DNA of 64,000 nt from Opitutia bacterium (GTDB lineage: Bacteria; Verrucomicrobiota; Verrucomicrobiia; Opitutales; Opitutaceae). Shown in pieces: positions 3,659 through 63,060 of the stretch (position 1 is the first letter of the stretch; each line of letters starts with the position of its first letter). The DNA is taken from NCBI GenBank assembly GCA_016217545.1, contig JACRHT010000017.1, positions 248,001 through 312,000 on the forward strand, given 5' to 3'. Position numbers and translations under genes: made by a program. The notes below the pieces were generated by a model, which worked only from the letters and a program-made list of their open reading frames with translations, searched no databases and was not told the origin of the DNA.

Positions 3659-4045
3659 ATGAATCAAAAATCCCCCGACGCCACCGTTCAGCGTCTCGTC
3701 CACGCGCTCAATGCCGCCGATCTCGATCAGGCGGCTTCACTCTACACGGCCGATGCCGTCTTCGTTCCAGAACCGGGCAAGGTCGTGCACGGACGCGCCG
3801 CCGTTCGCGCCGCCCTGGCCGAATTGCTCGCGCTCAAGCCGTGCCTCACGACGCATCGCCAGCAAATCTTCTCCGACGGAGACGTTGCACTCTATCACTC
3901 CCGGTGGTCCCTGCGCGGGACCGCTCCGGATGGGCAAACCGTCGAACTCGGCGGCAACTCCAGCGACGTCCTGCGACGTCAGGCGGACGGCACCTGGCTC
4001 ATCGCGATCGACAATCCGCACGGCACGCGGGTGCTGGGCGAGTGA
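3659..4045 (+). CDS. NTF2-like (SnoaL/DUF4440-type) small protein
   Basis: 128 residues from ATG 3659. The frame is open further upstream, but MNQKSPDATVQRLVHALNA begins exactly where the NTF2-like fold starts. The pattern is typical of the family: an N-terminal helix with 'ALNAADLDQAASLYTADAVFVPEPGKVVHG', then a cone-shaped sheet ending in 'DGTWLIAIDNPHG'. Such proteins bind small ligands or act as hydrolases or isomerases, so no substrate can be assigned. No signal peptide is seen, so it is probably cytoplasmic. It lies between two LacI-type operator candidates and just upstream of the GH57-like gene. Confidence 0.75.
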   Translation: MNQKSPDATVQRLVHALNAADLDQAASLYTADAVFVPEPGKVVHGRAAVRAALAELLALKPCLTTHRQQIFSDGDVALYHSRWSLRGTAPDGQTVELGGNSSDVLRRQADGTWLIAIDNPHGTRVLGE

Positions 4046-4080
4046 TCTCGCGGCCGGGCGCAAGTCGTCGCAGCGGCTTG

Positions 4081-4094
4081 CGCAAGGCTTTGCG
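4081..4094. promoter_or_regulatory. LacI-type operator candidate, copy 2
   Basis: CGCAAGGCTTTGCG, a perfect CGCAA-N4-TTGCG inverted repeat whose end is 54 bp upstream of the GH57-like start codon. The continuation TTGCGCAGGTCGG is shared with copy 5 upstream of the TonB receptor. Confidence 0.6.
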
Positions 4095-4148
4095 CAGGTC
4101 GGGGCCTCGCATCGCTGGAGTGCGTCTGCGCTTAGTGCGTGCTCCCAC

Positions 4149-6677: not shown

Positions 6678-6777
6678 CGCGGCCAACAAAACGAGCGCCG
6701 TCCGCCGGGCAAGCCATTACGCTGGGCACGGTGCATCACCGCTCGCCGCCTCGGTGTTTTCCCCAGTCGTGACGGGA

Positions 6778-6791
6778 TGCAACGAATTGCA
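6778..6791. promoter_or_regulatory. LacI-type operator candidate, copy 3
   Basis: TGCAACGAATTGCA, perfect TGCAA-N4-TTGCA arms, in the divergent region between the LacI gene and the beta-helix gene at 6875. It could serve both autoregulation and target control. Confidence 0.65.
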
Positions 6792-10485: not shown

Positions 10486-10499
10486 CGCAACGCCTTGCA
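10486..10499. promoter_or_regulatory. LacI-type operator candidate, copy 4
   Basis: CGCAACGCCTTGCA, YGCAA-N4-TTGCR inverted repeat just after the terminator and 70 bp upstream of the GPH symporter start. Confidence 0.6.
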
Positions 10500-17363: not shown

Positions 17364-17377
17364 CGCAATTCGTTGCA
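17364..17377. promoter_or_regulatory. LacI-type operator candidate, copy 5
   Basis: CGCAATTCGTTGCA, 117 bp upstream of the TonB receptor start. Read towards the receptor it continues TTGCGCAGGTCGG, as in copy 2. Confidence 0.6.
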
Positions 17378-27272: not shown

Positions 27273-28595
<1,323 letters not shown>

Positions 28596-28683
28596 GCAAC
28601 GCGACCGGCCGGCGCCCACCCGCCGGCCGGAGCACTGCGCTCCGCGACAAACGACACCACCACCCTCCCGGACATCCCGCTTC

Positions 28684-30099
28684 ATGACGCCTCCGCCGCC
28701 GCCCGCCGCCACGCCCCCCAAAGAGCAGACGACCTGGCTGGAGCGGATCGGTTTCGCGAGCGGGACGCTCCCGTTCAACTTCGGTGCGTCGGGCCTCAAC
28801 ACGATCGCCTACCCGATCTACAACATCACGCTCGGCATGAGTCCGACGCTGGTGGGTGTCGTGCTCGGAATCGGACGCCTCTGGGACGCGTTCATGGACC
28901 CCGTCGTGGGATCGATGAGCGACAACTATCGCTCGCGCTGGGGACGGCGGCGACCGTTCGTTGCGGTCGGCGCGCTCCTCTGCGCGCTCACCTTTCCTCT
29001 GCTCTGGTTCGTTCCCCTCAGCTGGAGCGCGAACTGGGCGTTCGGCTATTTCCTGGTCACCGCGCTGCTTTTTTTCACGGCGTTCGCCGTTTACGGCGTG
29101 CCTTACCTCACGCTCGGCTATGAGATGAGCACCGACTCGAACGAGCGCGTTCGCGTCACGGCGGTGCGCGCCATCGTCTCGAAGCTCACGTTCTTCATCG
29201 TCCCGTGGGTCTTCTCGGTGGCGCAACTGCCCGTGTTCGAAAGCACCATCGCCGGCATGCGCACACTCGGGCTGATCATCGGCGCATTGTTCATCGTGCT
29301 CGCGATCCCGACTGTGCTGTTCACCCGCGAGCGCTACGCCAAGCGCGCCGCCGCCCAAGCCAAGATCCCGCTCCGTGCGAGCATGCGGGAGACGCTGCAC
29401 AACCGGCCATTCCTCTACCTCGTCGGCATCGTGCTGGGCATGCTCGTCGGCACGAACCTGGTCGCGCAGCTCGGCGTCTACGTGAACAGCTACTACGTGT
29501 TCGCCGGCGACACTGTCGCGGGCGCGATGCTGCACGCGAAATCCCAGACGCTCTACGCGGTGGCCGGTATGATCGCCGTCCCGATCGTATCCCGCCTCGC
29601 CACGCGACACGGCAAACTCCGCGTCGTGCGCTGGTGCATCGCTTGCGGCATCCTCGCCTCGATCAGCAAATATTTCTGCTACAGCCGCGAGATCCCCGAA
29701 CTGCAATACGTCTCGATGCTGCTGCTGTCGCCGAGTTTCTCGGGCTTCTGGGTGCTGGTCGATCCGATGAAGGCCGACGTCGCCGACTACGACGAGCACC
29801 AGAGCGGAGTGCGCCGGGAAGGCATGTATGCCGCAGTGGCCAACTGGTTTGAGAAGACGGTCCTCACCGTAGCGATTCTCGTGTCCGGATTCGTGCTCGA
29901 TTTCTCCGGCTTCGACGTCGCCAAGGGCGGCGCGCAAACCCCCGAAGCGCTCATGACACTGCGCCTGATCTTCGCCGGCGTGCCCGCGGTGCTGCTCGCC
30001 ATCAGCCTCTACCTCGCCATCCGCTACCCCCTCACCGACGCCCGGGTCCGCACCATGAAAACCGAACTCGATCAACGCGCCGGCGCCACCAATGCCTGA
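28684..30099 (+). CDS. GPH-family (MFS) sugar:cation symporter (paralogue)
   Basis: 471 residues from ATG 28684. Same architecture as the symporter at 10570 and very similar along its whole length, e.g. 'DPVVGSMSDNYRSRWGRRRPF', 'YVNSYYVF' and 'SFSGFWVLVDPMKADVADYDEH' in both. The two probably arose by duplication. It overlaps the following gene by 8 bp. The flanking oxidoreductases suggest import of a sugar that is then handled by NAD(P)-dependent steps. Confidence 0.92.
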   Translation: MTPPPPPAATPPKEQTTWLERIGFASGTLPFNFGASGLNTIAYPIYNITLGMSPTLVGVVLGIGRLWDAFMDPVVGSMSDNYRSRWGRRRPFVAVGALLCALTFPLLWFVPLSWSANWAFGYFLVTALLFFTAFAVYGVPYLTLGYEMSTDSNERVRVTAVRAIVSKLTFFIVPWVFSVAQLPVFESTIAGMRTLGLIIGALFIVLAIPTVLFTRERYAKRAAAQAKIPLRASMRETLHNRPFLYLVGIVLGMLVGTNLVAQLGVYVNSYYVFAGDTVAGAMLHAKSQTLYAVAGMIAVPIVSRLATRHGKLRVVRWCIACGILASISKYFCYSREIPELQYVSMLLLSPSFSGFWVLVDPMKADVADYDEHQSGVRREGMYAAVANWFEKTVLTVAILVSGFVLDFSGFDVAKGGAQTPEALMTLRLIFAGVPAVLLAISLYLAIRYPLTDARVRTMKTELDQRAGATNA

Positions 30100-39385: not shown

Positions 39386-40846
39386 TCAAGGGGTTTTCGC
39401 CTCTGCGAGCGGCAGCGCACGGCGCTCGGCGATCAGCAACGGCGCATCGTAGACCGGCAAGTTGGAGAACACCACGCCCTCCGGCCCGGCCTTCCACTGC
39501 GAAGTCGGCAGCGCGTGAACGCGTCCGGTGAGCAGATCGACGAGCACCGGCTCCGTGAAGCGCGCCTTGGGGAGGGTCAGCTCGACCAAGGTCACGCCGT
39601 TAGCTTCGGACGGCGGCGCGTCGTTGAACCAGAGCGCCACGACCTGCGCGCCGGCCTGCTCGTAGCCGTGAAGAGCCAGTCCGCGCAGCGCCGTCGTGGT
39701 GAACGGAAAATCGGCGATCCGCTTCAATGTGTCGTCGAAAATCGCGAACACGTTCTGCGCGGCGCGATACGCGACCTTCGGCCGCGCGATGGTCCGATCC
39801 GGATTCGTCGCCAGCAGACCCTTGTAGTTCATGCGCAGAGCATCGCCCGGCTCACGGTGATAGTAGGTATAGTGGAGGTCGGACAGCGTGAACAAATTGA
39901 ACGCCACGTCGCGTCCCCGATGTGCGAGCATGCGCCGCAGGTTCCACTTGGCCTGCAGGTTTTCGGTCCAGGCAATCTCGCGGAGCGCGAACTGCCCCTG
40001 GCGTTGCGAAGGCGCGCCCGTCTCGCCCTGCCGCACCTCAATCGCACGGCCATACTTCGCGATGACGGCGTTGAGCCGATCGATGTTCGTCGTGTCGTCC
40101 GGATTGCGCGGGTAACCGTGGATCGTGATTGCATCCACGAGATCGAAGCGTCCTTTCGTCTGCACCGCGGCGAGGAACTGATCGGCGAAATCGACATTGC
40201 CCACCATCGCGAGCGCGAGGATCCGGCTCTCCCGCTGCAGCCCGCGCACCATCGACGCCGTCCGCAGAAAAAGATTCGCGTAGGCCTCGGGCGTCGGCGC
40301 CGTCGGCGAAACGAGATCCGGCTCATTCCAGATTTCCCATTCGCGCACGCGGTCCTTGTAGCGCGTGACCAGCGCCTGCACCCAGCGATCCCACGCCTCG
40401 AGCGCTTCGGGCGATGAGGGCAGGCCGTCGCCAAGCCCCTGGCCACCACCGCCTGGGTAAAGACGGTTGCCATAACTGATTTCCAGCCACGGTTGCACGC
40501 CCTGCGCCCGCGCGTCGTCGACCACCTCGTCGAGCCAGTCCCACGAATAGACGCCGCGCTCGCGTTCGCACTTGGCCCAACCGGCTTGCACCCGAACGCG
40601 CTTCGCGCCGAGCGGGCCCAGGTAGTCGCGGTAGTTGCGATAGATCGCGTAATCCCGATCGAGCGTCTCGGCGCCGATCGACCAGCTCGACGACGCGATC
40701 TCCTTCGCGGCGCGCGGCCGAACCTCGCCGACCGTCGGCAGCGCAATCTCAGCAGCGAGCACGTCCGACAACCCGCCGCCAGCGGCGAGCAGCAGCAGGA
40801 ACTGAGCAGCGCGGCGCCAACTGAGCGACGGAGACGACAAATTCAT
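39386..40846 (-). CDS. Clan GH-A glycoside hydrolase, secreted (copy 2)
   Basis: 486 residues from ATG 40846. Signal peptide MNLSSPSLSWRRAAQFLLLL..., mature near AAEI. Acid/base motif WNEPD (Glu174-175 region) and candidate nucleophile in RQGETGAPS (Glu275). Close paralogue of the gene at 12845: both share 'AITIHGYPRNPDDTTN', 'ENLQAKWNLRRMLAHRGRDV' and the C-terminal 'ARFTEPVLVDL'. It heads an operon with the hexuronate transporter, uxaC, mannonate oxidoreductase and IclR, so its product probably includes a uronate. Family not assigned with certainty. Confidence 0.86.
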   Translation of the reverse strand: MNLSSPSLSWRRAAQFLLLLAAGGGLSDVLAAEIALPTVGEVRPRAAKEIASSSWSIGAETLDRDYAIYRNYRDYLGPLGAKRVRVQAGWAKCERERGVYSWDWLDEVVDDARAQGVQPWLEISYGNRLYPGGGGQGLGDGLPSSPEALEAWDRWVQALVTRYKDRVREWEIWNEPDLVSPTAPTPEAYANLFLRTASMVRGLQRESRILALAMVGNVDFADQFLAAVQTKGRFDLVDAITIHGYPRNPDDTTNIDRLNAVIAKYGRAIEVRQGETGAPSQRQGQFALREIAWTENLQAKWNLRRMLAHRGRDVAFNLFTLSDLHYTYYHREPGDALRMNYKGLLATNPDRTIARPKVAYRAAQNVFAIFDDTLKRIADFPFTTTALRGLALHGYEQAGAQVVALWFNDAPPSEANGVTLVELTLPKARFTEPVLVDLLTGRVHALPTSQWKAGPEGVVFSNLPVYDAPLLIAERRALPLAEAKTP

Positions 40847-40926
40847 GGGGTGAGACGCGGGGTTTGTTCTGTTCTTCGCGCAGCCCTCCACACAAGGGGA
40901 CTGCCGGGGTGACAAGCGGGAGCCAG

Positions 40927-40979
40927 ACTCTACTGCATCGCACGGCGAGCGTCTATGGTTCAACTTGACAACATTTGTC
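40927..40979 (-). promoter_or_regulatory. Uronate-regulon promoter, copy 2 (GH-A / uxaC operon)
   Basis: Minus strand: palindrome GACAAATGTTGTC (40967-40979), 8 bp, CCATAGACGC (40949-40958) with -35-like TAGACG, a 17-bp spacer, -10-like TAGAGT (40927-40932). About 80 bp upstream of the GH-A start. Confidence 0.78.
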
Positions 40980-41057
40980 CCCGATTGACCGGCGGTGCGA
41001 GCGGTCGCTGGAGCGGTGGACGCGAGGATACAGTCGTGACGCCTCCAAGCCGCTGCC

Positions 41058-43376
41058 TCAGCGCGGCGCATCGAGCAGGTCGGCCAGCCGTTGCAACGCG
41101 CCCGCGGCGCGTGTGGCTTCGAGTGCGTTCGCCGCGTTCGCGTGGGCCGATGATCCCTGGGTTGAAATCTCGTCCCGGCGCAACTCTTCCGCCACGTGCC
41201 GCGCGTCCTCTAAATGCGCACGCGCTTCGTCGCGCTGCCCGGCCCGGATCGCAGTGAACGCCTGCACGCAAGCCGCGTAATACGCCAGCGTTCGTTCCGC
41301 GTAGGCGAAGCATTCTTCGTCTTCGCGGACACGCGCCCGCACTGCCGGCGGCAAATCGAGGGCTAACGCGGACTGGATCAATTCGCGACAACTCCGGCCA
41401 TGCTCGATGCTTTCGGCGAGCGTCGGTCCTTCACGCAGTTCGCCGGGCTCACTCCGAAAGCGCAGGTGCGAGTTGGGAAACAAAACCGCTTCGCCGGTGT
41501 TCAGTCGCGGTGCGAGGGTGTATTTAATCTCAGTGACGTTGGCCAACATCTGCTCGAGCGATGCGTAGAAGCGGCGCAGGTGGCCCGCGGCGTTTCCGTA
41601 GCGTCGGGCGAAGTAATCCCGCCAAAGCGCGTCGCAGTCCGTCTGCACATCCCAGAGCTGGCGCGCCATTTGGTAGTTCGTCAGCGCCTTGCTGCCCCAT
41701 CGCGCCGTGGTCACGTGCATGTAGTCGAACGACCGCGCACCGGCGCGAAAATAGGTTGGGATGTCGACCGCCATCGTGTGCATGAAGCAGACCGGCAGGC
41801 TGTTGAAGCCGCGCACATTGTAGTATTCCCCCACCGCGAGTTTTCCCCGGTAGTGTCGCTCGGGATCGCTCGCCCAACCCGTAAGTTGTCGACGGTATCG
41901 TTCGTTCCGCGCCGTGCAGTCCGGATCGTCGAGGCGGTGCACATAGCAGCGCTGGATCGGATAGAACGTCGCCATGCAATAGTCCCGCGGGAAGCCGGGT
42001 GGCAGCGGTCGACTCGGCGGTTCCACCACATCTCCGTAGGCTAGAAACGTCACCTCGAGCGGTCGCCGCAGCCGGCCCGCTGCCCGCGCCTCGTCCAATT
42101 CCTGACAAAACCGGTGCACCAGCTGGAGATAGCGATCGGTGGGCGAGCCTTGAGCGCGGCAATTTTCGCATTCGCACCACTTGCCCACATCCAGCGCCCA
42201 GAAGCGCACGATGTCCGCCTCGCGAAATCGCCCTTCGACCAGCGCCCGCACGTAGTTGCCGACAAACTCGGCGGTGGCATCGGCGTTCGACGTGCAATAG
42301 TTCGTGCCGCGGTTGACTTCGATTCCGGGCACGCGCCTGCCACCGACCAGCGCATACCATTCCGGGTGGGCCTCGAAATAGGACAATTGACCGTCGCCAT
42401 CGAGGTCCCCCTTGAACTCGAGACTCTCCGCATACGGATCTCGGGGCTGGGCCTCGTCACCGGCGAATCGGCGATGATCGTAAGGGTAAGGCTTTCTGGG
42501 TCCGATGAATTCGTGCTCGGCATCGTGTCGACCGCAAATCATCCGGATGCCGAGCTTGTGCATCAGCGCGTGCGGCTCCTGTTCGAGTGTCCAATAGTTG
42601 AGGCGATTGCGCGCCATCCAGAGGAGGAATGCGGAGTCGCCGCGGTTTTCCCACGCCAGAAAACCACGACTGGTGAAACTGGGACGCTGCGTGACGTCGA
42701 GGTCCGGCAACGCGTCGAGGTCCGGCACGTCCTCGCCTTGCTCGCCGGGGTCGAACCAGCGGCAACCCCATCGATACAACAAATCGTAGGCGCCGTAGAG
42801 CGCACCGCGTCGCTCCTGCGCTGCGATCAGGACGACGCGGCGCCCCTCTACGATCGCCGATTTCAGCCAATAACCCTCAGGCCCGAACTCCATGTGTTCG
42901 AGCCGCGCGTTGAACAACTGCGCCACGCGCCGCACGTGCGGATCATGCGCCAAACCGACCACGAGCACATCGCCCGGCGGCAACCGCGCCGCGGAACGCG
43001 CGACGGCGAAGTCGGCGGGCCGACCGGTCATCCGACGCAGGTAGCGTTGCACTTCCAGCGCGGCAAAGCTGAGCGTGCAGGCATTGTCGTCCACCAGATC
43101 GTCGTCGAGCCACACGACTTCCCCTTCGGCGCTGGCGGCCGCCGCCGCAGTCTCGAACGAACCGGTATCGACCAGGATCGTCGTGCCACTCGCAGCCGAC
43201 GTGGACGCCGTCCAACCGGCGAAGATCGCGAAGCAGACGATGACGCACACGTGCCTTCCAACGACAGCGGAGAAAAGCGAATCGGCGCGGCGAGACCGAA
43301 CGGACCGCGCAGATCCAGCGAGCAGTGTGGACGGTGAATCGAGCACGGAGAGGCAGGGGCGGGCTCCGCGCGGCAC
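41058..43376 (-). CDS. DUF4838 / GH67-like secreted protein
   Basis: 772 residues. ATG 43376 fits a leader of about 33 nt from the inferred promoter. The hydrophobic segment 'VCVIVCFAIFAGWTASTSA' ends near 62, preceded by a long Arg-rich N-region, so a later start is possible. An N-terminal alpha-glucuronidase-like domain ('FAALEVQRYLRRMTGRPADF') precedes the TIM-barrel region with 'YDLLYRWGCRWFDPGEQGEDVP', 'FWALDVGKWCECENC' and 'FTSRGFLAWENRGD', as in DUF4838 proteins. A DLDGDGQLS stretch (about 325) looks like a dockerin or EF-hand calcium loop. The regulon suggests action on glucuronate-decorated glycans. Activity unproven. Confidence 0.83.
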   Translation of the reverse strand: MPRGARPCLSVLDSPSTLLAGSARSVRSRRADSLFSAVVGRHVCVIVCFAIFAGWTASTSAASGTTILVDTGSFETAAAAASAEGEVVWLDDDLVDDNACTLSFAALEVQRYLRRMTGRPADFAVARSAARLPPGDVLVVGLAHDPHVRRVAQLFNARLEHMEFGPEGYWLKSAIVEGRRVVLIAAQERRGALYGAYDLLYRWGCRWFDPGEQGEDVPDLDALPDLDVTQRPSFTSRGFLAWENRGDSAFLLWMARNRLNYWTLEQEPHALMHKLGIRMICGRHDAEHEFIGPRKPYPYDHRRFAGDEAQPRDPYAESLEFKGDLDGDGQLSYFEAHPEWYALVGGRRVPGIEVNRGTNYCTSNADATAEFVGNYVRALVEGRFREADIVRFWALDVGKWCECENCRAQGSPTDRYLQLVHRFCQELDEARAAGRLRRPLEVTFLAYGDVVEPPSRPLPPGFPRDYCMATFYPIQRCYVHRLDDPDCTARNERYRRQLTGWASDPERHYRGKLAVGEYYNVRGFNSLPVCFMHTMAVDIPTYFRAGARSFDYMHVTTARWGSKALTNYQMARQLWDVQTDCDALWRDYFARRYGNAAGHLRRFYASLEQMLANVTEIKYTLAPRLNTGEAVLFPNSHLRFRSEPGELREGPTLAESIEHGRSCRELIQSALALDLPPAVRARVREDEECFAYAERTLAYYAACVQAFTAIRAGQRDEARAHLEDARHVAEELRRDEISTQGSSAHANAANALEATRAAGALQRLADLLDAPR

Positions 43377-49746: not shown

Positions 49747-51071
49747 AGTTCGAGGATTGCTCCGTCACGACGAAGTTGGTCGCGCAGATCCACCACCGCG
49801 ACGGAGGCGATTTCTCTATCCGCGCGGGCCGCCATCGCGGCCGCGGTTCCTGCGGCCTGTCCCATGGCCATGGTCTGTCCCATCGAGCGAACGCTCGCGT
49901 GCGCGTCGTGGGTCGCGGAAAAGCAACGCCCCGCAACCAGAAGATTGCGGCCATCCCGCGGAACCAAGGTGCGGAACGGCACGCCGACACACTGTCCGTC
50001 CGGCAAGTAGGCCCAGGCCGTGTCGGCGCCGCCGTGATGATCCTCGATCGGAGCTCCGCAGAGCGCGATCTGGTCATCGAACTGTCGCGCACCCAGCACA
50101 TCATCCCGCGTGAGTCGGTAAAGTCCGTGGACCCGGCGCGTTTCGCGCACGCCGATCTGCACACCGAAAGAGGCGAGCTGTGCCTTTTCGTATCCGGGCA
50201 CGCAGTCGCGCAAAAACCGGATGTATTCCACGGCTTGCTCCCGACCGTCCATCTCCGCGCGCGAAAGAAAATCGGGATCGGTCGCGTTGGTGGTGCCGCT
50301 GGCGTCTTTCCGATAGGAGGCGAGGCGGGTCATGATCGTCGCCGTCATGTGCTCCACCGGTGTGATGTGATCGCTGCCTTCCTTGCGCGGTAGCGCGTAT
50401 CGACCGCTTTCCGCGGCGCGGGCCATGAGCGCGTGGAATTCCTGCTTCGAGATGCTTTTTCGCCGGGCGACGTCGACGTTCACCATCTTGAACGTGGTCG
50501 TGAGCGTCTGCGCAGGGGCGATCTCGCCCGCGAGCTCGTAGCTGATTCCGGCAAAGTGGCAGACGTCCGCGTCGCCGCTCGTATCGATATAGGTCTTGCC
50601 GGAACAGAACCTCAGTCCGTCCTTGGTCGCCACCACAAGGCCAGTGATCCGTCCGTCATCGACCACGACGTCCTGCACCGATGCGTTGAGCAGGATCGAA
50701 ACGCCCGCTTCTCGGGCGAGCGACTCCCACACGATCTTGAGATACTCGGGATGATAAGTGACGCCCGTGCCCGCACCGTGCGTGTTGGGGCGCTCCAGCC
50801 AGGAGTTGTAGCGGCGCAATCGCGCCATCACGTCGTCCGGGATTCCGGCGACGACTTTCCGCGACCGCGTGCCCGGGGTGTAGAGTCCGTAAAACGTATC
50901 CAGCACCGCCGTGCTGGTCCCTCCGAGGAAAGGCAACCGTTCCAGCAGAAGGGTTCGTGCACCACGCCGAGCCGCCGCGATCGCCGCCACGGCTCCCGCC
51001 GAGCCCGCGCCGACGACGACCACGTCGTAGGCTGGCACGACCGGGATCTGTTTGCTGTAGAGCCGCATCAT
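49743..51071 (-). CDS. FAD-dependent oxidoreductase (FAD_oxidored type)
   Basis: 442 residues. N-terminal dinucleotide fold 'YDVVVVGAGSAGAVAAIAAARRGARTLLLERLPFLGGTSTAVLDTF', then 'IDTSGDADVCHFAG' and C-terminal 'LLVAGRCFSATHDAHASVRSMGQTMAMGQAAGTAAAMA'. These match the FAD-dependent oxidoreductases often found in Verrucomicrobia and Planctomycetes sugar loci, whose substrates are largely unknown. No signal peptide seen. Second gene of the coupled operon; ATGA overlaps on both sides. Confidence 0.9.
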   Translation of the reverse strand: MMRLYSKQIPVVPAYDVVVVGAGSAGAVAAIAAARRGARTLLLERLPFLGGTSTAVLDTFYGLYTPGTRSRKVVAGIPDDVMARLRRYNSWLERPNTHGAGTGVTYHPEYLKIVWESLAREAGVSILLNASVQDVVVDDGRITGLVVATKDGLRFCSGKTYIDTSGDADVCHFAGISYELAGEIAPAQTLTTTFKMVNVDVARRKSISKQEFHALMARAAESGRYALPRKEGSDHITPVEHMTATIMTRLASYRKDASGTTNATDPDFLSRAEMDGREQAVEYIRFLRDCVPGYEKAQLASFGVQIGVRETRRVHGLYRLTRDDVLGARQFDDQIALCGAPIEDHHGGADTAWAYLPDGQCVGVPFRTLVPRDGRNLLVAGRCFSATHDAHASVRSMGQTMAMGQAAGTAAAMAARADREIASVAVVDLRDQLRRDGAILEL

Positions 51072-51901
51072 GGGGACGGCCCGACGTGCGTCGGGCGATG
51101 GAGCGCTCGCGCGTAGCGGGCGCGCTGGTCACGAATCCACCGTTCGTAGGAATCGTGCGTATCCCCCAGGTGCATGTTGCGAAGGACGTGGTGCGCCACG
51201 CCGCGCGCATCGAGTTCCCGCAAAGTGAGCTCGTTGAGACACTGGATCGCGGTCAGCGCGGCGACCGATGAGAGCGGACAAATTGGATAGGCACCCGTGC
51301 GTCCCTCCACCAACACCGTGGTGTCGCCAATCGGCATGCCGTTATCGATGAGGACACCTCGACGGGCGCGTGCGATGACGTGAGAGAGATTTTCGCCCGA
51401 GCTGTGCTTCGGCGTGGCGCGGGCGGACTGGGCCGCTGAGCACAAACCCACGATCGGATTATCCGGATAACGCGCCACCCACTCGCGCGCGATGTCCACG
51501 GCGGCCGGCGTCGTTCCGGTGGCGGTGATCACCAGCAAGGGCTCTCCCGGACCGATGTCGTAGTCGTCGAGGAGCCGCGCGCCCAGGCCCTCGAACTTCT
51601 CGATCGCCTGATTAACCCGGATACCGTTCACCCCCACGACGTCGGTGAACGTCGTCAGCCCCGTCTGCAGAAGAGCGTGAAAACCCGTGAGCGCTCCCAT
51701 GCGGACGCACAACTCCTCGACGGCCAGCCGGGAGTGTCCGTTGGCATAGACGTGAACCAATCCACCCGCCGCGATCGCCTCGGCAAAGAGCGAAGCCACT
51801 TCGTGCAGCCGCTCCGTCTGCCCGCGCATGACATCACGGACATGATCGAGCTGATCCGGAAACGAAAGCACCGGCGGCCGCGTCTTGGGCACAGAAGACA
51901 T
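51068..51901 (-). CDS. SIS-domain sugar isomerase-like protein (UPF0309 type)
   Basis: 277 residues. 'GGLVHVYANGHSRLAVEELCVRMGALTGFHALL' and 'LLVITATGTTPAAVDIAREW' are the phosphosugar-binding SIS elements; 'KHSSGENLSHVI' and 'IDNGMPIGDTTVLVEG' match UPF0309 proteins. First gene of the eight-gene operon. SIS proteins act as phosphosugar isomerases, etherases or regulators; its role here is unknown. Divergent from an AraC regulator with a 74-bp gap. Confidence 0.87.
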   Translation of the reverse strand: MSSVPKTRPPVLSFPDQLDHVRDVMRGQTERLHEVASLFAEAIAAGGLVHVYANGHSRLAVEELCVRMGALTGFHALLQTGLTTFTDVVGVNGIRVNQAIEKFEGLGARLLDDYDIGPGEPLLVITATGTTPAAVDIAREWVARYPDNPIVGLCSAAQSARATPKHSSGENLSHVIARARRGVLIDNGMPIGDTTVLVEGRTGAYPICPLSSVAALTAIQCLNELTLRELDARGVAHHVLRNMHLGDTHDSYERWIRDQRARYARALHRPTHVGPSP

Positions 51902-55545: not shown

Positions 55546-56565
55546 ATGTTCCTGATCGAATTTCTTCCACCGCGCCCGGCGCCGCTCTGGCCACTGGCCG
55601 TGCAGATGGGAATTCGCCACTGCGTCGTGAAAACCGATCCGCGCTGGACGCATCTGCCGCCGCCGAGCGAGATCGACACGCTGCGCACGATCCAACGCGA
55701 ACTGGCGGATGCCGGCCTCACGCTAATCGGCCTCGAAGGCGACCCGATCGACATGACGCGCATCAAGCTCGGCCTCCCCGGGCGCGACGAAGACATCGCC
55801 GCCTACCAAACGATGCTGCGCAACATGGGCGAGCTCGGCCTGCGGCTGCTCTGCTACAATTTCATGGCTGGTATCGGCTGGCATCGCTCGAACGCCGAGG
55901 TCCTCGGCCGCGGTCGCGCGCTGGTTTCGCAGCTCGACGTCGCTGGCATGCCCTCGACGTTGACTGAGCACGGCGAAGTCTCCGCCGAACGCATCTGGGA
56001 AAACTACGTCACTTTCCTGCGCGCAATCCTGCCGGTCGCGGAGAAAGCGGGCGTCCGCCTCGGTGCGCACCCGGACGATCCGCCGGTGCCGGCGCTGCGC
56101 GGACTCGGCCGCATTTTCCATTCGCCGGCGCAGTTCGAGCGCGTGCTCGACCTGTCGCCTTCGCGGCACCACGGACTCACGTTTTGTCAGGCCAACTGGA
56201 AACTGATGAGCGGCGCCGATTCCGACGAAACGCAGCGCCGCCTCGCCGAGCATGTGTGCCGCTTCACCGGCACCGGCCGCGTGCACTTCGTGCATTTGCG
56301 CGACGTCGTCGGCGACGCGCAATGTTTCACCGAGACGTTCCACGACGAAGGTCCGACCGACATGGCCACGATGCTGCGGCTCTATCACGACGCCGGTTTT
56401 CGCGGCCCGGTCCGCTGCGATCACGTGCCGACCATGGCCGGCGAAACCAACGACACTCCGGGTTACGGCACCCTCGGACGCCTTTTTGCCGACGGCTATC
56501 TCCTCGGCCTCATGGACGCACTGCAGGTTCGCACCACTCCCGAAGAATGGCTGGAAAAACTCTAA
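55546..56565 (+). CDS. uxuA: D-mannonate dehydratase
   Basis: 339 residues, the shorter UxuA form (E. coli about 394). It converts D-mannonate to KDG in the cytoplasm with Fe/Mn. Motifs: 'LLCYNFMAGIGWHRS', 'LGAHPDDPPVPALRGLGRIF', 'GLTFCQANWKLMSGAD', 'VHFVHLRDVVGD', and 'GPVRCDHVPTMAGE', containing the Cys and His metal ligands. 44 bp after the GH3 gene. It continues the UxaC and mannonate oxidoreductase steps encoded at 35.8-38.1 kb, under the same promoter type. Confidence 0.94.
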   Translation: MFLIEFLPPRPAPLWPLAVQMGIRHCVVKTDPRWTHLPPPSEIDTLRTIQRELADAGLTLIGLEGDPIDMTRIKLGLPGRDEDIAAYQTMLRNMGELGLRLLCYNFMAGIGWHRSNAEVLGRGRALVSQLDVAGMPSTLTEHGEVSAERIWENYVTFLRAILPVAEKAGVRLGAHPDDPPVPALRGLGRIFHSPAQFERVLDLSPSRHHGLTFCQANWKLMSGADSDETQRRLAEHVCRFTGTGRVHFVHLRDVVGDAQCFTETFHDEGPTDMATMLRLYHDAGFRGPVRCDHVPTMAGETNDTPGYGTLGRLFADGYLLGLMDALQVRTTPEEWLEKL

Positions 56566-56591
56566 ACCAAACTCGCCCCACCCTTTTCCCC

Positions 56592-57335
56592 ATGTCCATC
56601 GACGCCTACCGCAAAGAAGTCGGAATGATGAAACTCGAGAAGCTGATCGCCGCGCGCGAAGAGATCTCGACCAAGCCGTTCCCCGTGCCCGTGAAGGAAG
56701 TGCTCGATCGCTACGAGCAGCTCTACACCGGCGCCGTCAGCGATGTGCTGCGCGAGTTCGCGCTGCTCGACCAGGCGCTGCCCTGCCATCTCAAGCCTCT
56801 CCGTCCCGAGCGCACGGTCGCCGGCCTGGCGTTCACGGTGAAGAGCGCGCCCAACGTGAAGATCACCGGCGAGATGAAATTCCGCGAGGAGATGCTCGGC
56901 CACCTCGGCGCAGACAGCTTCGTGATGTGGGACGCGAGTGGCGACGAGAAGGCCACCATGTGGGGCGGCGTCATGACCGCGACCGCTCACGGCATGGGCG
57001 TGCGCGCCGCGTGCATCGACGGCGGCATCCGCGATACGCACCAGATCCTCGAGAAGAACTTTCCGGTGTTCTACAAGCACCGCATCCCGAACGGCTCGCT
57101 CGGCCGCTGCCAGATCACGCATTACCAGATCCCGATTCAGATCGGCGACGTGCTCATCAAACCCGGCGACATCATCCTCGGCGACATCGACGGCGTCGTC
57201 TGCGTGCCGCGCGACATCGCCTACGACGTCCTCCTGCGTGCCGAGGAGATCAAATCCAACGAGAAAAAGATCTTCTCGTGGGTGGCCGCCGGCGAGACGG
57301 TCAAACAGATCACCGAAAAGGGCGGCTATTTCTGA
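56592..57335 (+). CDS. RraA-fold (HMG/CHA-type aldolase-like) protein
   Basis: 247 residues from ATG 56592; the upstream open frame runs inside uxuA. RraA-family motifs: 'LYTGAVSDVLRE', 'WGGVMTATAHGMGVRAACIDGGIRDTHQI', and 'GDIILGDIDGVVCVPRDIAYDVL'. Members are 4-hydroxy-4-methyl-2-oxoglutarate-type aldolases, decarboxylases, or RNase E regulators; an aldolase or decarboxylase of a sugar-derived keto acid fits this operon, but the reaction is unknown. 26 bp after uxuA and 19 bp before the Gfo/Idh gene. Confidence 0.87.
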   Translation: MSIDAYRKEVGMMKLEKLIAAREEISTKPFPVPVKEVLDRYEQLYTGAVSDVLREFALLDQALPCHLKPLRPERTVAGLAFTVKSAPNVKITGEMKFREEMLGHLGADSFVMWDASGDEKATMWGGVMTATAHGMGVRAACIDGGIRDTHQILEKNFPVFYKHRIPNGSLGRCQITHYQIPIQIGDVLIKPGDIILGDIDGVVCVPRDIAYDVLLRAEEIKSNEKKIFSWVAAGETVKQITEKGGYF

Positions 57336-57354
57336 GCCGGGTCACTTTCGCCCA

Positions 57355-58476
57355 ATGAGCTCGCCCTACGCGCCGGAAGAAATCGGCCTAGCCGGTCCGC
57401 GCGGACCGGTGGTCGCGCCGGGCGAGTTCGTCTTTGCCGCGGCGTTTTTCGAGCACGCGCACCTCTTCGGGCAGTGCGACGCCCTGCTCGCCGCCGGCGC
57501 AACGCTGGCGTGGGTCTACGATCCCGACGCCGCAAAGGCCGCGGCGCTGCAAACCCGCTACCCGCAGGCGAAACTCGCGCGCACCTTCGACGAGATTCTC
57601 GACGATCCCACCGTGCGTCTCGTCACGGCCGCCGCCGTGCCTTCCGAGCGCTGCGGCATCGGTCTGCGGGTGCTGCGCGCGGGCAAGGACTATTTCACCG
57701 ACAAGGCGCCGCTCACCTCGCTCGCGCAGCTCGCCGAGGCGCGCCGCGTCGCTGCTGAGACCGGCCGCAAATACGCCGTCTACTACAGCGAACGACTCCA
57801 CAACGAAGCCGCGCTGCACGCGACGCAGCTCATCGCGCGTGGCGTGATCGGCAAGGTCGTGCAGGTCGTCGGCTTCGGTCCGCATCGCATCGGACGCGAC
57901 CGTCGCCCGGCCTGGTTCTACGACAAGGCTCGCAGCGGCGGCATCCTCTGCGATCTCGCCTCGCACCAATTCGAGCAACTCCTCACCTGGACCGGTGCTG
58001 ATCGAGTCGACATTACGCACGCGATGGCCGCCAACCACGCGCACGGCGACGCCTCCGAGTTCGAGGACTATGGCGAAGCCTCACTGTGCACCGACACAGG
58101 GGCGACCGGTTTCGTGCGCGTCGATTGGCTGACACCCGACGGGCTCGGCACGTGGGGCGACGGCCGGAGTTTCATTCTCGGCACGCGCGGCTACATCGAG
58201 CTGCGCAAATACATCGACGTGGCGCGCGAACGCACCGGCAGCCACGTCTACGTCGTCGACGGCACCGGCGAGCATCACATCCCCGTCGCCGGCCGGATCG
58301 GCTTCCCGTTCTTCGACCAACTCATTCGCGACTGCCTCGAACGCACCGAACACGCCATGACTCAAGCGCACATCTTCCGCGTCGCCGAACTCACGCTGCG
58401 CGTCCAGCAACTCGCCGCCAGCCGAACGACGTCGCCGGCTCTCGCGGCCGGAGTCTACGGCAACGCGACGCGGTAA
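57355..58476 (+). CDS. Gfo/Idh/MocA-family oxidoreductase
   Basis: 373 residues from ATG 57355. A divergent Rossmann start ('EFVFAAAFFEHAHLFGQCDALLAAGATLAWVYDPDAAKAAAL'), cofactor loop 'GLRVLRAGKDYFTDKAPLTSLAQLAEARR' with DKAPLT in place of EKPLT, and 'GGILCDLASHQFEQLLTWTGAD' in the C-terminal domain. Last gene of the GH3, uxuA, RraA operon. The role is probably oxidation or reduction of a sugar acid or glycoside. Confidence 0.88.
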   Translation: MSSPYAPEEIGLAGPRGPVVAPGEFVFAAAFFEHAHLFGQCDALLAAGATLAWVYDPDAAKAAALQTRYPQAKLARTFDEILDDPTVRLVTAAAVPSERCGIGLRVLRAGKDYFTDKAPLTSLAQLAEARRVAAETGRKYAVYYSERLHNEAALHATQLIARGVIGKVVQVVGFGPHRIGRDRRPAWFYDKARSGGILCDLASHQFEQLLTWTGADRVDITHAMAANHAHGDASEFEDYGEASLCTDTGATGFVRVDWLTPDGLGTWGDGRSFILGTRGYIELRKYIDVARERTGSHVYVVDGTGEHHIPVAGRIGFPFFDQLIRDCLERTEHAMTQAHIFRVAELTLRVQQLAASRTTSPALAAGVYGNATR

Positions 58477-58514
58477 CGACAATAGTCCACCACTTCCCGT
58501 CCGTTTCGCTCCGA

Positions 58515-58528
58515 CGCAACGGCTTGCG
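58515..58528. promoter_or_regulatory. LacI-type operator candidate, copy 7
   Basis: CGCAACGGCTTGCG, perfect arms, followed by GCAGG as in copies 2 and 5. It is 50 bp upstream of the secreted unknown protein, far from the main LacI cluster. Confidence 0.55.
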
Positions 58529-58578
58529 CAGGCGCGGTCTCGAACTGCGGCGCGCGGCACCGCATCGTGGCCGGCGCT

Positions 58579-60441
58579 ATGCCGTTTCCCTACCCTCGTT
58601 GCGCGGCTCCGTCGCCCATCCTCCCCTTCGTTCTCGCGCTCACCCTGACCATCGGCGCGCTCGCCAGCGCCGTGTCGAGTCGCGCTTTCGAAAAAACCGT
58701 TTTCTCGAGTGTCTACGCCGACCTCGAAGACTTTGAGCAGTTCGCCGTGCGCGCCAAACAATCCGGCGCCACGCACATCGACCTCACGCCGTCGCTGCCT
58801 TGGAGCTACTGGGAATACGATCAGCCAGGCGATCCCTACCCGGCGTGGGTCATCACCAAAGTCGGCCTGCTCAAGATCACGCGTCCCGCCGCACTGCAGC
58901 GCTATCTCCCGGAGGACCATTCCGAACGCGTGCTGCAAACCCTCGCCGCGCGCGGACAGATTCTGCGCAAGCACGGATTGAAGGGCCTGCTCGGCCTGGC
59001 CGAGCCATCGATGCTGCCGGAGGCCGTTTTTCGCGACCATCCCCTCTGGCGCGGCGCGCGCGTCGACCATCCGACGCGTTCCCGCGTGGCGCGTTTTGCG
59101 CCATCGATCGATCACCCGGAAGTGCTGGCGTTGTTCCGCGAAGCGATGGCCGCGCTGCTGCGGCGCTGTCCGGAAATCGACATCGTCGACATCCTCACCA
59201 ACGACTCCGGTTCCGGACTCGATTGGAGCCCCGGACTCTATAGCGGTCAGTTCGGCAACACGTTGTTTCGCCATCGCAGCATGGATGAGCGCCTCAGCGC
59301 CTTCTTCGCGGTGCTGCATGCCGGCGCAAACGACGCACAGACGCGACTCGACATTCGCATCAAACTCACGCGTGAAGCCGATCCGCTCCGCATCGCGCGC
59401 AAGCTCACCGCTGGCAGCTCGATCGAGAATCTCGAAGGACCCGACGGCACACCATTCATGGTTTCCGCCGGAACGGGCGAAGCCTACGGCAACACTTTCA
59501 CGCCCGTCCTCGGCATTCCACGCATCGCCGAATTCGTCGACGCGCTGATGGCCACGCACGAGTCCGCCGCACCACGCATGTTCGTGTCCTTGAGCGACCG
59601 GCGGAGTCGCGCGCTCTTCTTCGACGTCTACGACCGCTTCCGCGCCCAGCCCGCGCGCAATCCCGTCGCCAAGCTCACGCTGTTGCGCGATGTCGCCCGC
59701 GCGCAAGCGGGCGAGCAACACGCCGACAGCCTCCTGCGACTCTGGCTCCACCTCCAGGAGACCAGCGACCTCGTGCGTCTTCTCGATACCGGCGGCTTCA
59801 TTTACTACCTCGGCACGGTGCACCAGCGCTGGCTGACGCGCCCCTTCGTGCCGTTTCCCCAGGAAATTCCGGCGGCCGACAAGGCCTACTACCGCCGCTT
59901 CCAGTTCCAGGCCCTCGACGAAGCGCACGCCGAGAGCCTCTCCGACGTGCAAGCCACCGACGTCTACGGCGGCTGGAGCGGGCGCCATTTCGTGAACCGC
60001 GTCAGCGCACCGATTGAGCGTCACGTCAGCGAGGCCGCAAACCTCGCCGAACAAATCGGCAATGCCGACCTCGCGCGACGCCTCCGCATCTTTCTCTGCA
60101 TCGTGCGCAACGCGCAGAATGCCGTCAGCTACCAGGCGCAGCTCGATCGCGTTCGCCGTCTCGGCCTCGCACCTGATCCGAGCCCGGTGGTCGAAACCCA
60201 ATCCGGCTGGGATCGCCAGATGATGATGCAGACCGCCCGCGCCGAGCTGGACAACACCGCGCTGTTGATGGAGCTGCTCGGCGAGCGCCCCAGCGACTAC
60301 CTGCTCACCGCTGCGACGCCGGAGGAAGAGGACATCACGCGCTTTACGCCCGATCTGCGGCCGCAGCTGCAGAAGAAACTCGATCTGATGAACGCGCGCT
60401 GGGAAGACTACAAACGCGTGTTCACGACGCCGAACTGGTAA
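58579..60441 (+). CDS. Secreted protein of unknown function, TIM-barrel-like N-terminus
   Basis: 620 residues from ATG 58579; GTG 58567 is also possible. The signal peptide 'PFVLALTLTIGALASA' ends near 35. I do not recognise the family. The start 'DLEDFEQFAVRAKQSGATHIDLTPSLPWSYWEYDQPGDPYPAWVI' and 'ILRKHGLKGLLGLAEPSMLPEAVF', then 'CPEIDIVDILTNDSGSGLDW', look like a (beta/alpha)8 glycosidase-type barrel. No canonical NEP or catalytic signature is obvious; Asp/Glu in 'TNDSGSGLDW' are candidates. The C-terminal half is helical. Operator copy 7 upstream links it to the LacI regulon. Confidence 0.8.
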   Translation: MPFPYPRCAAPSPILPFVLALTLTIGALASAVSSRAFEKTVFSSVYADLEDFEQFAVRAKQSGATHIDLTPSLPWSYWEYDQPGDPYPAWVITKVGLLKITRPAALQRYLPEDHSERVLQTLAARGQILRKHGLKGLLGLAEPSMLPEAVFRDHPLWRGARVDHPTRSRVARFAPSIDHPEVLALFREAMAALLRRCPEIDIVDILTNDSGSGLDWSPGLYSGQFGNTLFRHRSMDERLSAFFAVLHAGANDAQTRLDIRIKLTREADPLRIARKLTAGSSIENLEGPDGTPFMVSAGTGEAYGNTFTPVLGIPRIAEFVDALMATHESAAPRMFVSLSDRRSRALFFDVYDRFRAQPARNPVAKLTLLRDVARAQAGEQHADSLLRLWLHLQETSDLVRLLDTGGFIYYLGTVHQRWLTRPFVPFPQEIPAADKAYYRRFQFQALDEAHAESLSDVQATDVYGGWSGRHFVNRVSAPIERHVSEAANLAEQIGNADLARRLRIFLCIVRNAQNAVSYQAQLDRVRRLGLAPDPSPVVETQSGWDRQMMMQTARAELDNTALLMELLGERPSDYLLTAATPEEEDITRFTPDLRPQLQKKLDLMNARWEDYKRVFTTPNW

Positions 60442-60683
60442 TTCGCTGGGACTCGCGCGGTTCAGCATGAATGCCGCATCGCGCGATGGCTGCAGACTCC
60501 TCGTGTGATTGGCTGGGGTGAGGTGGGTCTCTCTGTGCTTGGACAGGTCGACCAGCAGGTGGCGCCCAATTCGTTTCGACACTGGCTTGAGACTTCGGCA
60601 ACCAGAGACCCGCCCATGATCGAGACCGAAACAATGCTTCTAGCATTTTGGACGCGCAATACTCGCCATGCCCGTCGCGTCCG

Positions 60684-60703
60684 AAATGTGGCCAAATGTG
60701 GCC
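60684..60703 (+). repeat. Tandem direct repeat AAATGTGGCC x2
   Basis: Two exact 10-bp units in AT-richer DNA left of the tRNA fragment. The core TGTGGCCA also occurs in the palindrome at 60946-60961, so these may be integrase or excisionase arm-type sites. Confidence 0.45.
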
Positions 60704-60797
60704 AAAATTGATGGCGATAATCGCTTCTAGCTATCGCTTGCCAATTACGAAAAAAACGTCGTTAGTTATTCAATATATGACATTAACAAACGAAACC

Positions 60798-60872
60798 AGC
60801 GGTCTATTGCGGCGGTCTTGAAAACCGCTGAGGCGAAAGCCTCCGGGGGTTCGAATCCCTCCCCTTCCGCCA
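60798..60872 (+). tRNA. 3' fragment of tRNA-Ser(UGA), attachment-site remnant
   Basis: Anticodon stem GCGGT/ACCGC with anticodon TGA at 60819-60821, a long variable arm (typical of Ser), T-arm GGGGG-TTCGAAT-CCCTC, and acceptor 3' strand CCCTTCC-G-CCA ending at 60872. The matching 5' acceptor strand GGAAGGG is absent upstream, and only the end of the D-arm is present. It is therefore a 3' tRNA duplicate of the kind left by tyrosine integrases; an integrase gene follows 146 bp later. Confidence 0.82.
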
Positions 60873-60945
60873 ATTGATGGTTAGTTGGCTGCTAAACCAA
60901 CAACGCGTAAAGGCGCTCTGGAACTGGTCGCGAATTTCTAGGCCA

Positions 60946-60961
60946 AATTGTGGCCACAATT
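60946..60961. promoter_or_regulatory. Perfect 16-bp palindrome upstream of the integrase
   Basis: AATTGTGGCCACAATT, 57 bp before the integrase start. It shares TGTGGCCA with the direct repeats at 60684-60703. Candidate arm-type or autoregulatory site. Confidence 0.5.
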
Positions 60962-61018
60962 CGGACCATGAAGCGCCCCCAGGAATCCAAAACCTCCGCG
61001 AGGTGAACCTCGGTATCG

Positions 61019-62308
61019 ATGCCCCCTCACCCCGCCCCAGACGGGAAATTTCTTTCCTATTCCTGCCACGTCGAATGGCTCGAGAATGGCGTCAGACAAC
61101 GCAAGAACGTCCCGACCGCCGAAAATGCCGACGCACTGATCGCCGCGATCAAGAAGCGAACCGTGCAAGTCGACGCGGGACTCACCTCCCAGGTCACACG
61201 GCTGACAAAAGCGCAGATCGAGTTCGCCGAACTTGCGTTCACGCGCCTCCGCGATGCGGGCTATTACGTGCCGGAGGAGATTGAATCCGCGAGTTCGATT
61301 TTGAAGGCAGTGCAGTGGTTCGCAGACAACTACAATCCGGACCATGCGATTCCGCCGACTGTGTCTGAAGCAGTCAGTCGGTTTCTTGCCACACGTGTGG
61401 GCAAATCACCACGCACATACAAATCCCACAAAACCTATCTGGATGAGTTTGCGGCGAATTACGGCTCGCAGTCGATCGCTGCAATCACTCCGGCAATCGT
61501 GGATGAGTATATTCGCACCTGTCCCTTCGGCAACGTCGCTAAGCTCCATCGGTGGGATTCGCTCCACGCTCTTTTCGAGTTCGCGCGCGGAAAGAAAAAC
61601 GTCTCCGGCACATGGATAGGAGTGAATCCAGTCAAAGCCGTCGCCGAGCCTGAATACGCCCCTTCGCGACCGAAGATCTACACCGTCAAAGAGTGCGAAC
61701 AACTGATCAAGGGAGCAGTGCTTAACTGCTACGCGCCAAACATCGTCGTGCGCCTGTTCGGGATGGTGCGCGCCGACGAGATGAAGGCGATGGTGCGCAA
61801 CGGCAAATCGATCTGGAAATACGTCAACCTGAAGACCGGGTGGATGCACCTCCCTGCAAACGTGGTGAAGACCAAAGCAGACAAGGACCGCGGCGGTCGA
61901 AATGTTCGCATCAACCCAACTCTCGATGCGTGGCTGCGCGAATTTCGGCGCCGCGGGTGGGACATAAGCGACAGTCGAACGCTCGACGAGCGCGTGCGGA
62001 AGTTCGCGTCCCCTGAAAAGATGGCCGAACAGGACATTCCGTTGGAGGACCGCCACGCAAATCTCGTGCGACACACAGCGATTTCAGCAGCGGCGACACG
62101 CGCATCTCTCACCGACTGCGCTATGGAGGCGGGAACCAGCGAGGCGATAATTCGCCGGCATTACCTCGAGCGACTAACAAAAAAAGAGGGCGACCGATTC
62201 TTCGCTTTCACCCCTGCGCACTATAAATTGGACGCACTGTGGTCGCGACGAACGGAACTGCGGATCCGCGGTAAGCCTTCGAGCCAAGACTCGAAGTCAT
62301 CGGCATAA
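61019..62308 (+). CDS. Tyrosine recombinase (site-specific integrase)
   Basis: 429 residues. The N-terminal half contains an Arm/core-binding region with a SAM-like stretch 'AVSRFLATRVGKSPRTYKSHKTYLDEFAANYGSQSIAAITPAIVDEYIR'. The catalytic domain shows Arg in 'VRLFGMVRADEM', Lys in 'VVKTKADKDRGGRNVRI', Arg in 'NLVRHTAISAAATRAS' and the nucleophile Tyr in 'IIRRHYLERLT'. The usual His of HxxR reads Asn and the GH box reads GT, as in divergent integrases. Codon use is less GC-rich than the neighbouring CAZyme genes. It sits directly after the tRNA-Ser fragment, so it likely used this site. Confidence 0.9.
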   Translation: MPPHPAPDGKFLSYSCHVEWLENGVRQRKNVPTAENADALIAAIKKRTVQVDAGLTSQVTRLTKAQIEFAELAFTRLRDAGYYVPEEIESASSILKAVQWFADNYNPDHAIPPTVSEAVSRFLATRVGKSPRTYKSHKTYLDEFAANYGSQSIAAITPAIVDEYIRTCPFGNVAKLHRWDSLHALFEFARGKKNVSGTWIGVNPVKAVAEPEYAPSRPKIYTVKECEQLIKGAVLNCYAPNIVVRLFGMVRADEMKAMVRNGKSIWKYVNLKTGWMHLPANVVKTKADKDRGGRNVRINPTLDAWLREFRRRGWDISDSRTLDERVRKFASPEKMAEQDIPLEDRHANLVRHTAISAAATRASLTDCAMEAGTSEAIIRRHYLERLTKKEGDRFFAFTPAHYKLDALWSRRTELRIRGKPSSQDSKSSA

Positions 62309-62588
62309 ATGCGGATCCGCCGCTCGACGCCCTCATTTTCAACCGCCGGCAGGATAAATGTGGGATAGGGATGCGCACGACGGCCGGATCGCAATATACC
62401 GCCGCCCTCTTGAGTGGCACGCGTAAGGTTTGGGCGACATCGCGCAGCGTTACGACCGCCCGTGCCAAGTTTGGCGCCTCCGACACGGGTGCGCACTCGG
62501 TTGCTGTAGAAGCTAGCCATCCGTGTCCGATCGGTAGGTTCAGCGAACCTGCCGAAGACTGCAGATGGATTTGCTTCGCGATTGCCAT
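62221..62588 (-). pseudogene. Excisionase/HTH-like remnant, frameshifted
   Basis: In one frame from ATG 62588: 'LARAVVTLRDVAQTLRVPLKRAAVYC', like the HTH of excisionases. In the next frame, from about 62380 down to 62221: 'HPYPTFILPAVENEGVERRIRIYADDFESWLEGL', like the wing and end of the same domain. Joining them with one frame change near 62375-62385 restores a typical small recombination-directionality protein. It converges on and slightly overlaps the integrase 3' end. I infer a broken accessory gene of the integrated element. The rest of 62589-63060 shows no gene I can support. Confidence 0.45.
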
Positions 62589-63060
62589 CTAGACGCTCTT
62601 TCTGCGCAGCCATTCGTCCACCGCACGCGCTGGCGGCGTCCAGTCGATGCATGCTGTCGGCCATTCGATACGGCTTTCTACGGAGGGAGGAGGGCCGAGA
62701 TTGTATGATGAAGCCGCTCGGCAGGCGCTGATCGGCATATGGGAGGCGTCGAATCGCCCCGTGCCCGCCGCCATCGATTTTTCTTAGCTTTAGATCAAGG
62801 GAACGAGGTTCCAGACTCACTCTTTACTGCGCGGTGAAACGCTGCGCCCCTAACAAGTGCAGTTCGCATTTCCGCCCGCCGCCGCACCGAATCCCCAGCC
62901 GCAAGTGGCGGCCCCGCCGAAACAGCAGTTCCCCCGCCCTAACCGCGATACTCCGCTGCGCAGGCAAGGGGCATTTCCCGTGTTCTACTGCATTCTCTCG
63001 TGTCGGCGCCGGTCGCTTGCTTAGCTACGAGGGTTCTGGCGACATTGCCTCGTCCTGACT

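Follow-up and report, generated by a model that had tools for sequence, protein, structure and literature searches.

The gene at positions 58579 to 60441 (+ strand) of the 64,000-nucleotide stretch of Opitutaceae DNA analysed here (the window) encodes a 620-residue protein that is most likely a secreted or periplasmic glycoside hydrolase and, as far as structure prediction can indicate, distantly related in structure to GH138 and to the GH67/GH115/DUF4838 group. Our tentative reading, held with a little less than even confidence, is that of an exo-alpha-galacturonidase-like hydrolase from a family unnamed in Pfam and NCBIfam, with a substrate that may differ in the clade (clade A, below) to which the window protein belongs. 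The fold, the conserved acidic residues and arginines, the apparent secretion and the uronate-rich surroundings in which most homologues occur agree with an exo-uronidase, which is therefore preferred. The degradation of rhamnogalacturonan takes many enzymes, and to our knowledge several of its steps still lack an assigned protein except in the gut Bacteroides, which are well studied. For one of these steps a direct candidate is the present family, which occurs beside rhamnogalacturonan lyases in hosts ranging from Sphingomonas to Gracilimonas.

An open reading frame of 624 codons occupies 58567-60441 (+); it gives 624 residues from a GTG at 58567 and 620 from the ATG at 58579, which is the more likely start. 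A longer antisense ORF (58081-60582, 833 aa) overlaps it; the + strand is taken as coding because its protein is conserved in other genomes. The N-terminus carries a leader with a hydrophobic stretch at about residues 14-33 and an Ala-rich end, read by eye as a signal peptide of about 33 residues (58579-58677, end approximate). Similar leaders are present on most of the homologues compared, with the homologue at locus L025 as an exception. Thus, a secreted 620-residue protein, as the earlier note on this DNA had it, is borne out by the ORF, the leader and the leaders of the homologues.

Upstream on the same strand lie a UxuA-like mannonate dehydratase gene (55546-56565), an ORF (56184-57335) whose residues 183-339 match RraA/aldolase-like proteins and, directly before the gene, a Gfo/Idh/MocA-type oxidoreductase gene (57238-58476). 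Downstream, a stretch of lower G+C content (60500-62820; 0.53-0.61 in 500-base windows vs about 0.64-0.70 around it) separates the gene from a GH106 rhamnosidase gene that starts at 63061. Inside this stretch, 61019-62308 encodes a protein with a weak, below cut-off resemblance to tyrosine recombinases (XerD, E 0.0004), and the stretch is possibly an inserted element. A search of the window for tRNA genes found none.

The earlier note could name no family for the protein, and the searches agree: NCBIfam gave 0 matches and Pfam none above cut-off. A confident place in a characterised non-carbohydrate family, looked for in the same two collections, was likewise not found. A release-factor-like identity, raised by weak matches in the helical half (baeRF_family10 E 0.0021, acVLRF1 E 0.0035), was rejected: the two matches, both below cut-off, are seen in 1 of 17 members. 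Against all PDB chains, phmmer returned no match up to E 10, and a profile hmmsearch returned only an antibody fragment (E 2.9). The best match of a related 17-member profile to the PDB chains had an E of 0.97, and GH138 was absent among its matches. A limited literature search, covering titles and the openings of abstracts, found no prior description of the family.

Homologues occur in at least six phyla. Within a set of 95 related genomes, 33 have a match (own genome included); 8 of them hold the full-length type of about 620 aa (E below 1e-50), and the remainder have mainly a paralogue of about 780 aa. Named genomes, when scanned, yielded 28 loci (L021-L048), with hosts that include Opitutaceae, Bryobacterales, Granulicella, Sphingomonas, Caulobacter, Novosphingobium, Gracilimonas, Bacteroidales and Ignavibacteria. 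Phylum-wide, a profile search matched 69 of 387 genomes, many solely through the remote groups described below. The sole tblastn match among 72,556 plasmid records is a 32% identical relative at 12001-13737 of L087, on a 110-kb plasmid of Subdoligranulum variabile. This plasmid relative carries no annotation, and a GH88/105-like stretch (36% over 149 residues) lies 1.6 kb downstream of it. In the tree, the window protein groups with those of genomes G032 and G057 and of loci L021 and L022 in one clade (clade A, support 99/97), apart from all others. All these counts come from contigs of uneven length and from genomes among which there is kinship, with ORFs picked roughly by a composition-weighted caller.

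An AlphaFold model of the window protein, built with 29 aligned sequences, reached a mean pLDDT of 80.0 and a pTM of 0.83. For the homologue from Sphingomonas mali (L041 9968-11878; 34% identical) the model reached 82.2 and 0.83; the two used the same 29 sequences and are not fully independent. Both AlphaFold and the structure searches, Foldseek and VIA, point to a (beta/alpha)8 barrel at about residues 41-360 (58699-59658, +), which gives shape to the barrel-like N-terminal half of the earlier description. It is followed in the model by a helical C-terminal half, residues 361-620 (59659-60438, +). By Foldseek, GH138 protein BP0997 fills the first five rows for the window model (best E 5.3e-8), followed by GH67 (4.7e-5), GH20 and GH115. 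For the S. mali model GH138 fills the first four rows (4.9e-7), followed by human N-acetyl-alpha-glucosaminidase (1.1e-4), O-GlcNAcase and GH20. By VIA, where a family missing from the list is not thereby excluded, GH138 is first for the window model (Z 12.9 over 452 residues, rmsd 5.8; O-GlcNAcase Z 11.9), and it is again first for the S. mali model (Z 12.2 over 457 residues), though its lead over GH20 (11.6) amounts to a tie. TM-scores to GH138 are low for both models (0.36-0.45), and the relation is therefore a distant one. The suggestion that this could be a glycoside hydrolase has thus been followed by structure prediction and fold search, in which GH138 was the top Foldseek match of two models, and it is favoured at that level.

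Among the positions counted, those unchanged in 29 of 29 family sequences are, in the barrel half, D85, Y87, W90, R125, E148, R158, R161, D163, R167, D209, W216, Y221, R238 and R265 and, in the C-terminal half, R417, R421, Q444, D456, Y518, Q519, W544 and R546. Asp209 (codon 59203-59205, +) follows strand beta-4 (residues 200-206) and is the candidate general acid. Asp163 (codon 59065-59067, +) follows a short strand (158-161), is invariant too in a 17-sequence alignment, and is a candidate for the second acidic residue. Glu286, at a strand end, was considered as a catalytic residue and ruled out, being present in just 24 of 29 sequences.

Profile comparison by hhalign extends these relations. 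The paralogue of about 780 aa aligns with query residues 52-608 (P 100, E 3e-45), and its Asp, invariant in 10 aligned rows, falls on Asp209. A verrucomicrobial group of about 720 aa matches the query barrel (P 98, E 6.6e-14) and has an invariant Glu at query residue 210, one column after Asp209. The DUF4838 protein at locus L079, whose own DUF4838 match has an E of 2.3e-51, aligns with P 94 and E 1.6e-7, again with Asp on Asp209. No match was obtained by hhalign to the window's own DUF4838 protein (41058-43376, - strand), which also has a Glyco_hydro_67N domain and whose gene adjoins a GH39-like gene (39386-41071). The role proposed for Asp209 is kept because two of the three remote alignments and all 29 family members support it. 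The earlier note took Asp or Glu in the region of residues 200-230 as candidate catalytic residues; Asp209 is such a candidate, being also Asp in the paralogues of about 780 aa and in the DUF4838 protein. From the three profile alignments, the query is placed in a wider superfamily that includes DUF4838.

Members of the group of about 720 aa (L075-L078, L081-L083, L086) display invariant SEN and CPxC motifs. The six of these eight that were scanned gave no Pfam match above cut-off, and there was no PDB match. At L080, as judged by eye, one uninterrupted frame of about 2500 aa joins another domain to a member of this group. Loci of the paralogue of about 780 aa (L009-L020, L071-L074) have, also by eye, conserved amidohydrolase-, SDR- and dehydrogenase-like neighbours.

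Outside clade A, homologues are found largely among pectin genes. Using tblastn, 18 of 26 such loci have at least one of six markers, with PL26 at 12, PL22-like genes at 8, GDSL at 7, GH88/105 at 6, GH28 at 5 and PL11 at 4. The marker representatives were drawn from L024, L029 and L041, so these loci count themselves, and four of the 12 PL26 loci are from closely related Sphingomonas. The marker names are those of Pfam. Eight of the 26 loci have no marker, one of them on 4.3 kb and seven with 13-22 kb of sequence. None of the six markers was found at any of 4 loci of the paralogue of about 780 aa. PL26 is present in 8 of 8 genomes with a full-length homologue vs 31 of 95 overall (P 6.5e-5, or 0.0015 within the family, in statistics that ignore kinship).

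Clade A is set in other surroundings. Searches by tblastn for the six markers found none in L021, L022, L067 (genome G032) or the window; the sole marker in the clade is a GH88/105-like gene (51%) that adjoins the LacI gene at L068 (genome G057). Regulon partners in the clade are GH57-like, GH39-like, beta-helix and esterase proteins and, in L068, also an alginate-lyase-like one. The glycan of clade A may differ from that of the other homologues.

An operator-like site, CGCAACGGCTTGCG, lies at 58515-58528 (+) and is a copy of the regulon motif GCAACGNNTTGC; its core GCAACGGCTTGC (58516-58527) is 63 bases 5' of the ATG. The strict motif GCAACGNNTTGC occurs 5 times in the window, whereas 100 shuffles averaged 0.34 and never reached 5. 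The looser motif GCAANNNNTTGC occurs 6 times vs 1.47 expected, and as many occur in 1 of 100 shuffles. A search of all 5.09 Mb of the genome with the strict motif returned 16 rows, or 15 places, one being palindromic. This total equals that of a reversed-pattern control (16); thus, it is the clustering and not the genome total that forms the operator signal. Seven of the 15 places fall within 93 kb of the window's contig (C17), five of them inside the window; the Poisson P is about 2e-8, calculated for a cluster that was picked post hoc. The two outside it, at C17:240253 and C17:333412, belong to loci L064 and L066, and the regulon may extend beyond the window.

The operator is probably read by a LacI-type protein encoded at 5604-6689 (- strand; Pfam LacI E 2.5e-15), which has a 58.8% identical counterpart in L068. 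Further operator copies lie at 3573-3584 (-), before a GH57-like gene; at 6779-6790 (+), between the LacI gene and that of a beta-helix/PKD protein (6875-10393); at 10487-10498 (+), before an MFS_2-type transporter reading frame (10633-11976, family named through its L068 relative); and at 17365-17376 (-), before a TonB-dependent receptor gene (14344-17247). The GH57-like gene (3711-5591, +), likewise named through a relative in L068, shows the highest conservation among the regulon genes that were compared. A second MFS-type transporter copy at 28387-30099 is 75% identical to that at 10633-11976, the first of the two being behind an operator.

The same partners recur in related genomes. In L067 a 63% orthologue of the 620-residue protein lies less than 10 kb from relatives of the window regulon genes, namely a TonB receptor (61%), a beta-helix/esterase protein (62% over 537 residues) and a GH57-like protein (77%), with a further TonB-type receptor gene interposed; a LacI gene was not found in the L067 stretch. 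In L068 a 58% orthologue is flanked by a GH57-like gene (79%) and a GH39-like gene, and relatives of LacI (59%), the MFS transporter (64%) and the TonB receptor (54%) lie within about 6 kb. Operator-like sites occur in both stretches, but not directly before the orthologue. A GCAANNNNTTGC site lies no more than 250 bp 5' of the start at 3 of 3 clade A loci scanned (window, L021, L022) vs 0 of 26 others, where about 0.01 per locus would be expected by chance. In none of the four other clade A loci was a relative found of the UxuA, RraA and Gfo genes that lie upstream in the window. The operator link to extracellular enzymes about 40 kb away, first read from the window alone, is thus backed by the synteny in L067 and L068 and by operator-like sites in clade-mates. 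It is sound as a prediction from sequence, with binding by the regulator likewise predicted.

In the mechanism proposed, some of the invariant arginines would hold the terminal uronic acid, probably alpha-D-galacturonate, in a pocket. The leaving glycosidic oxygen would be protonated by Asp209 at the end of beta-4, and the second acidic residue may be Asp163 or Glu148. Lyases and other hydrolases would first have cut rhamnogalacturonan-I, or a pectic glycan related to it, into oligosaccharides, and from these the uronate would be freed. A LacI-type repressor at 58515-58528 would hold the gene off until products of the glycan arrive. In its most specific form the proposal is possible yet rather doubtful: a new GH family, present in six phyla or more, whose members take galacturonate off rhamnogalacturonan-I oligosaccharides at the non-reducing end and so act as a rhamnogalacturonan galacturonohydrolase, with a fold unrelated to GH28 and built on a GH138 scaffold, of which the LacI-controlled Opitutaceae branch has turned to a different uronate glycan.

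An exo-uronidase of the same fold could also act on another sugar or linkage, e.g. as an alpha-glucuronidase like those of GH67 and GH115, on the glycan of clade A and not on rhamnogalacturonan-I. We consider this unlikely, but to be taken seriously: both families rank among the fold matches that follow GH138, the clade A regulon is unlike the rhamnogalacturonan-I loci, and the upstream gene for a UxuA-like mannonate dehydratase encodes an enzyme type that belongs to glucuronate breakdown. However, GH138 outscores both families by Foldseek with both models, the homologues outside clade A sit among rhamnogalacturonan genes, and the N-terminal domain of GH67 was not found in the query by Pfam. 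The sugar need not be a uronic acid at all if the protein were an exo-glycosidase (a hexosaminidase like those of GH20, GH84 or NAGLU, or a rhamnosidase) that merely shares these loci. GH20, O-GlcNAcase and N-acetyl-alpha-glucosaminidase are close behind GH138, VIA has GH20 and GH138 in a tie for the S. mali model, and the window encodes a SIS-domain (sugar isomerase-like) protein at 51068-51901; yet uronate enzymes neighbour most homologues, and this alternative appears improbable.

Slightly less probable again is a polysaccharide lyase with a barrel as its scaffold, acting by beta-elimination next to a uronic acid. The invariant R158, R161, R167, R265, Y87 and Y221 would suit such an enzyme, as would the wealth of lyases at the homologue loci and a second catalytic acid for which there are candidates only (Asp163, Glu148). 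The best fold matches are, however, hydrolases, and the invariant Asp209 and Asp163 come just after barrel strands. That the protein is a non-catalytic or structural secreted component of a polysaccharide system is the least probable of these readings. Activity is predicted, and the second catalytic residue is a candidate, which leaves some room for it; against it stands the complete conservation of D85, E148, D163, D209 and nine arginines in all 29 sequences, which come from several phyla. The preferred reading remains that of an exo-alpha-galacturonidase-like hydrolase.

Among known systems, GH138 is the nearest by fold. The backbone of rhamnogalacturonan-I contains GalA-alpha-1,2-Rha, and GH138 uses the catalytic pair Glu294 and Glu361. 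Its structure (6hzg, BP0997) resembles the query's predicted barrel and helical C-terminal region, aligned over 452 residues; the pectin setting of most query homologues is also alike, and the linkage, GalA-alpha-1,2-Rha, is possibly the same. In contrast, BT0997 and BP0997 have no significant sequence similarity to the query, the query is without the N-terminal part, the alignment starting only at residue 165 of GH138 and residue 47 of the query, and the candidate acid of the query is Asp, whereas GH138 uses Glu294 at what may be the corresponding place. The neighbours of the query homologues point to rhamnogalacturonan-I and not, as for GH138, to rhamnogalacturonan-II. The founder of GH138, BT0997, is described as an alpha-galacturonidase on alpha-1,2-GalA on rhamnose in rhamnogalacturonan-II (PMC7939467). 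An Opitutaceae genome paper counts GH138 among type I rhamnogalacturonan enzymes (PMC12613999), and these GH138 entries may be proteins of the wider group considered here.

The remaining comparisons are with alpha-glucuronidases, DUF4838 and the long paralogue. GH67 and GH115 alpha-glucuronidases, which are exo-uronidases, are like the query in their fold matches to its models; in sequence, the query has no significant match to them among PDB chains and no GH67 N-terminal domain by Pfam. DUF4838 proteins (PF16126, often with Glyco_hydro_67N) share a homologous barrel stretch, which in the alignment with L079 includes the Asn-Asp at query residues 208-209, whereas the Pfam model itself is unmatched by the query up to E 1 and by 17 of 17 members scanned. 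The paralogue of about 780 aa, present in Opitutaceae and some other Verrucomicrobiota and with no Pfam match above cut-off, has R158, R161, D163, R167 and D209 invariant in common with the query. It differs in an extra N-terminal domain, in the lack of an obvious signal peptide (by eye) and in its neighbours, and it forms a separate branch (support 100/100). Together, the groups of about 780 and about 720 aa hint that GH138, GH67 and DUF4838 are surrounded by a larger superfamily that is as yet unexplored.
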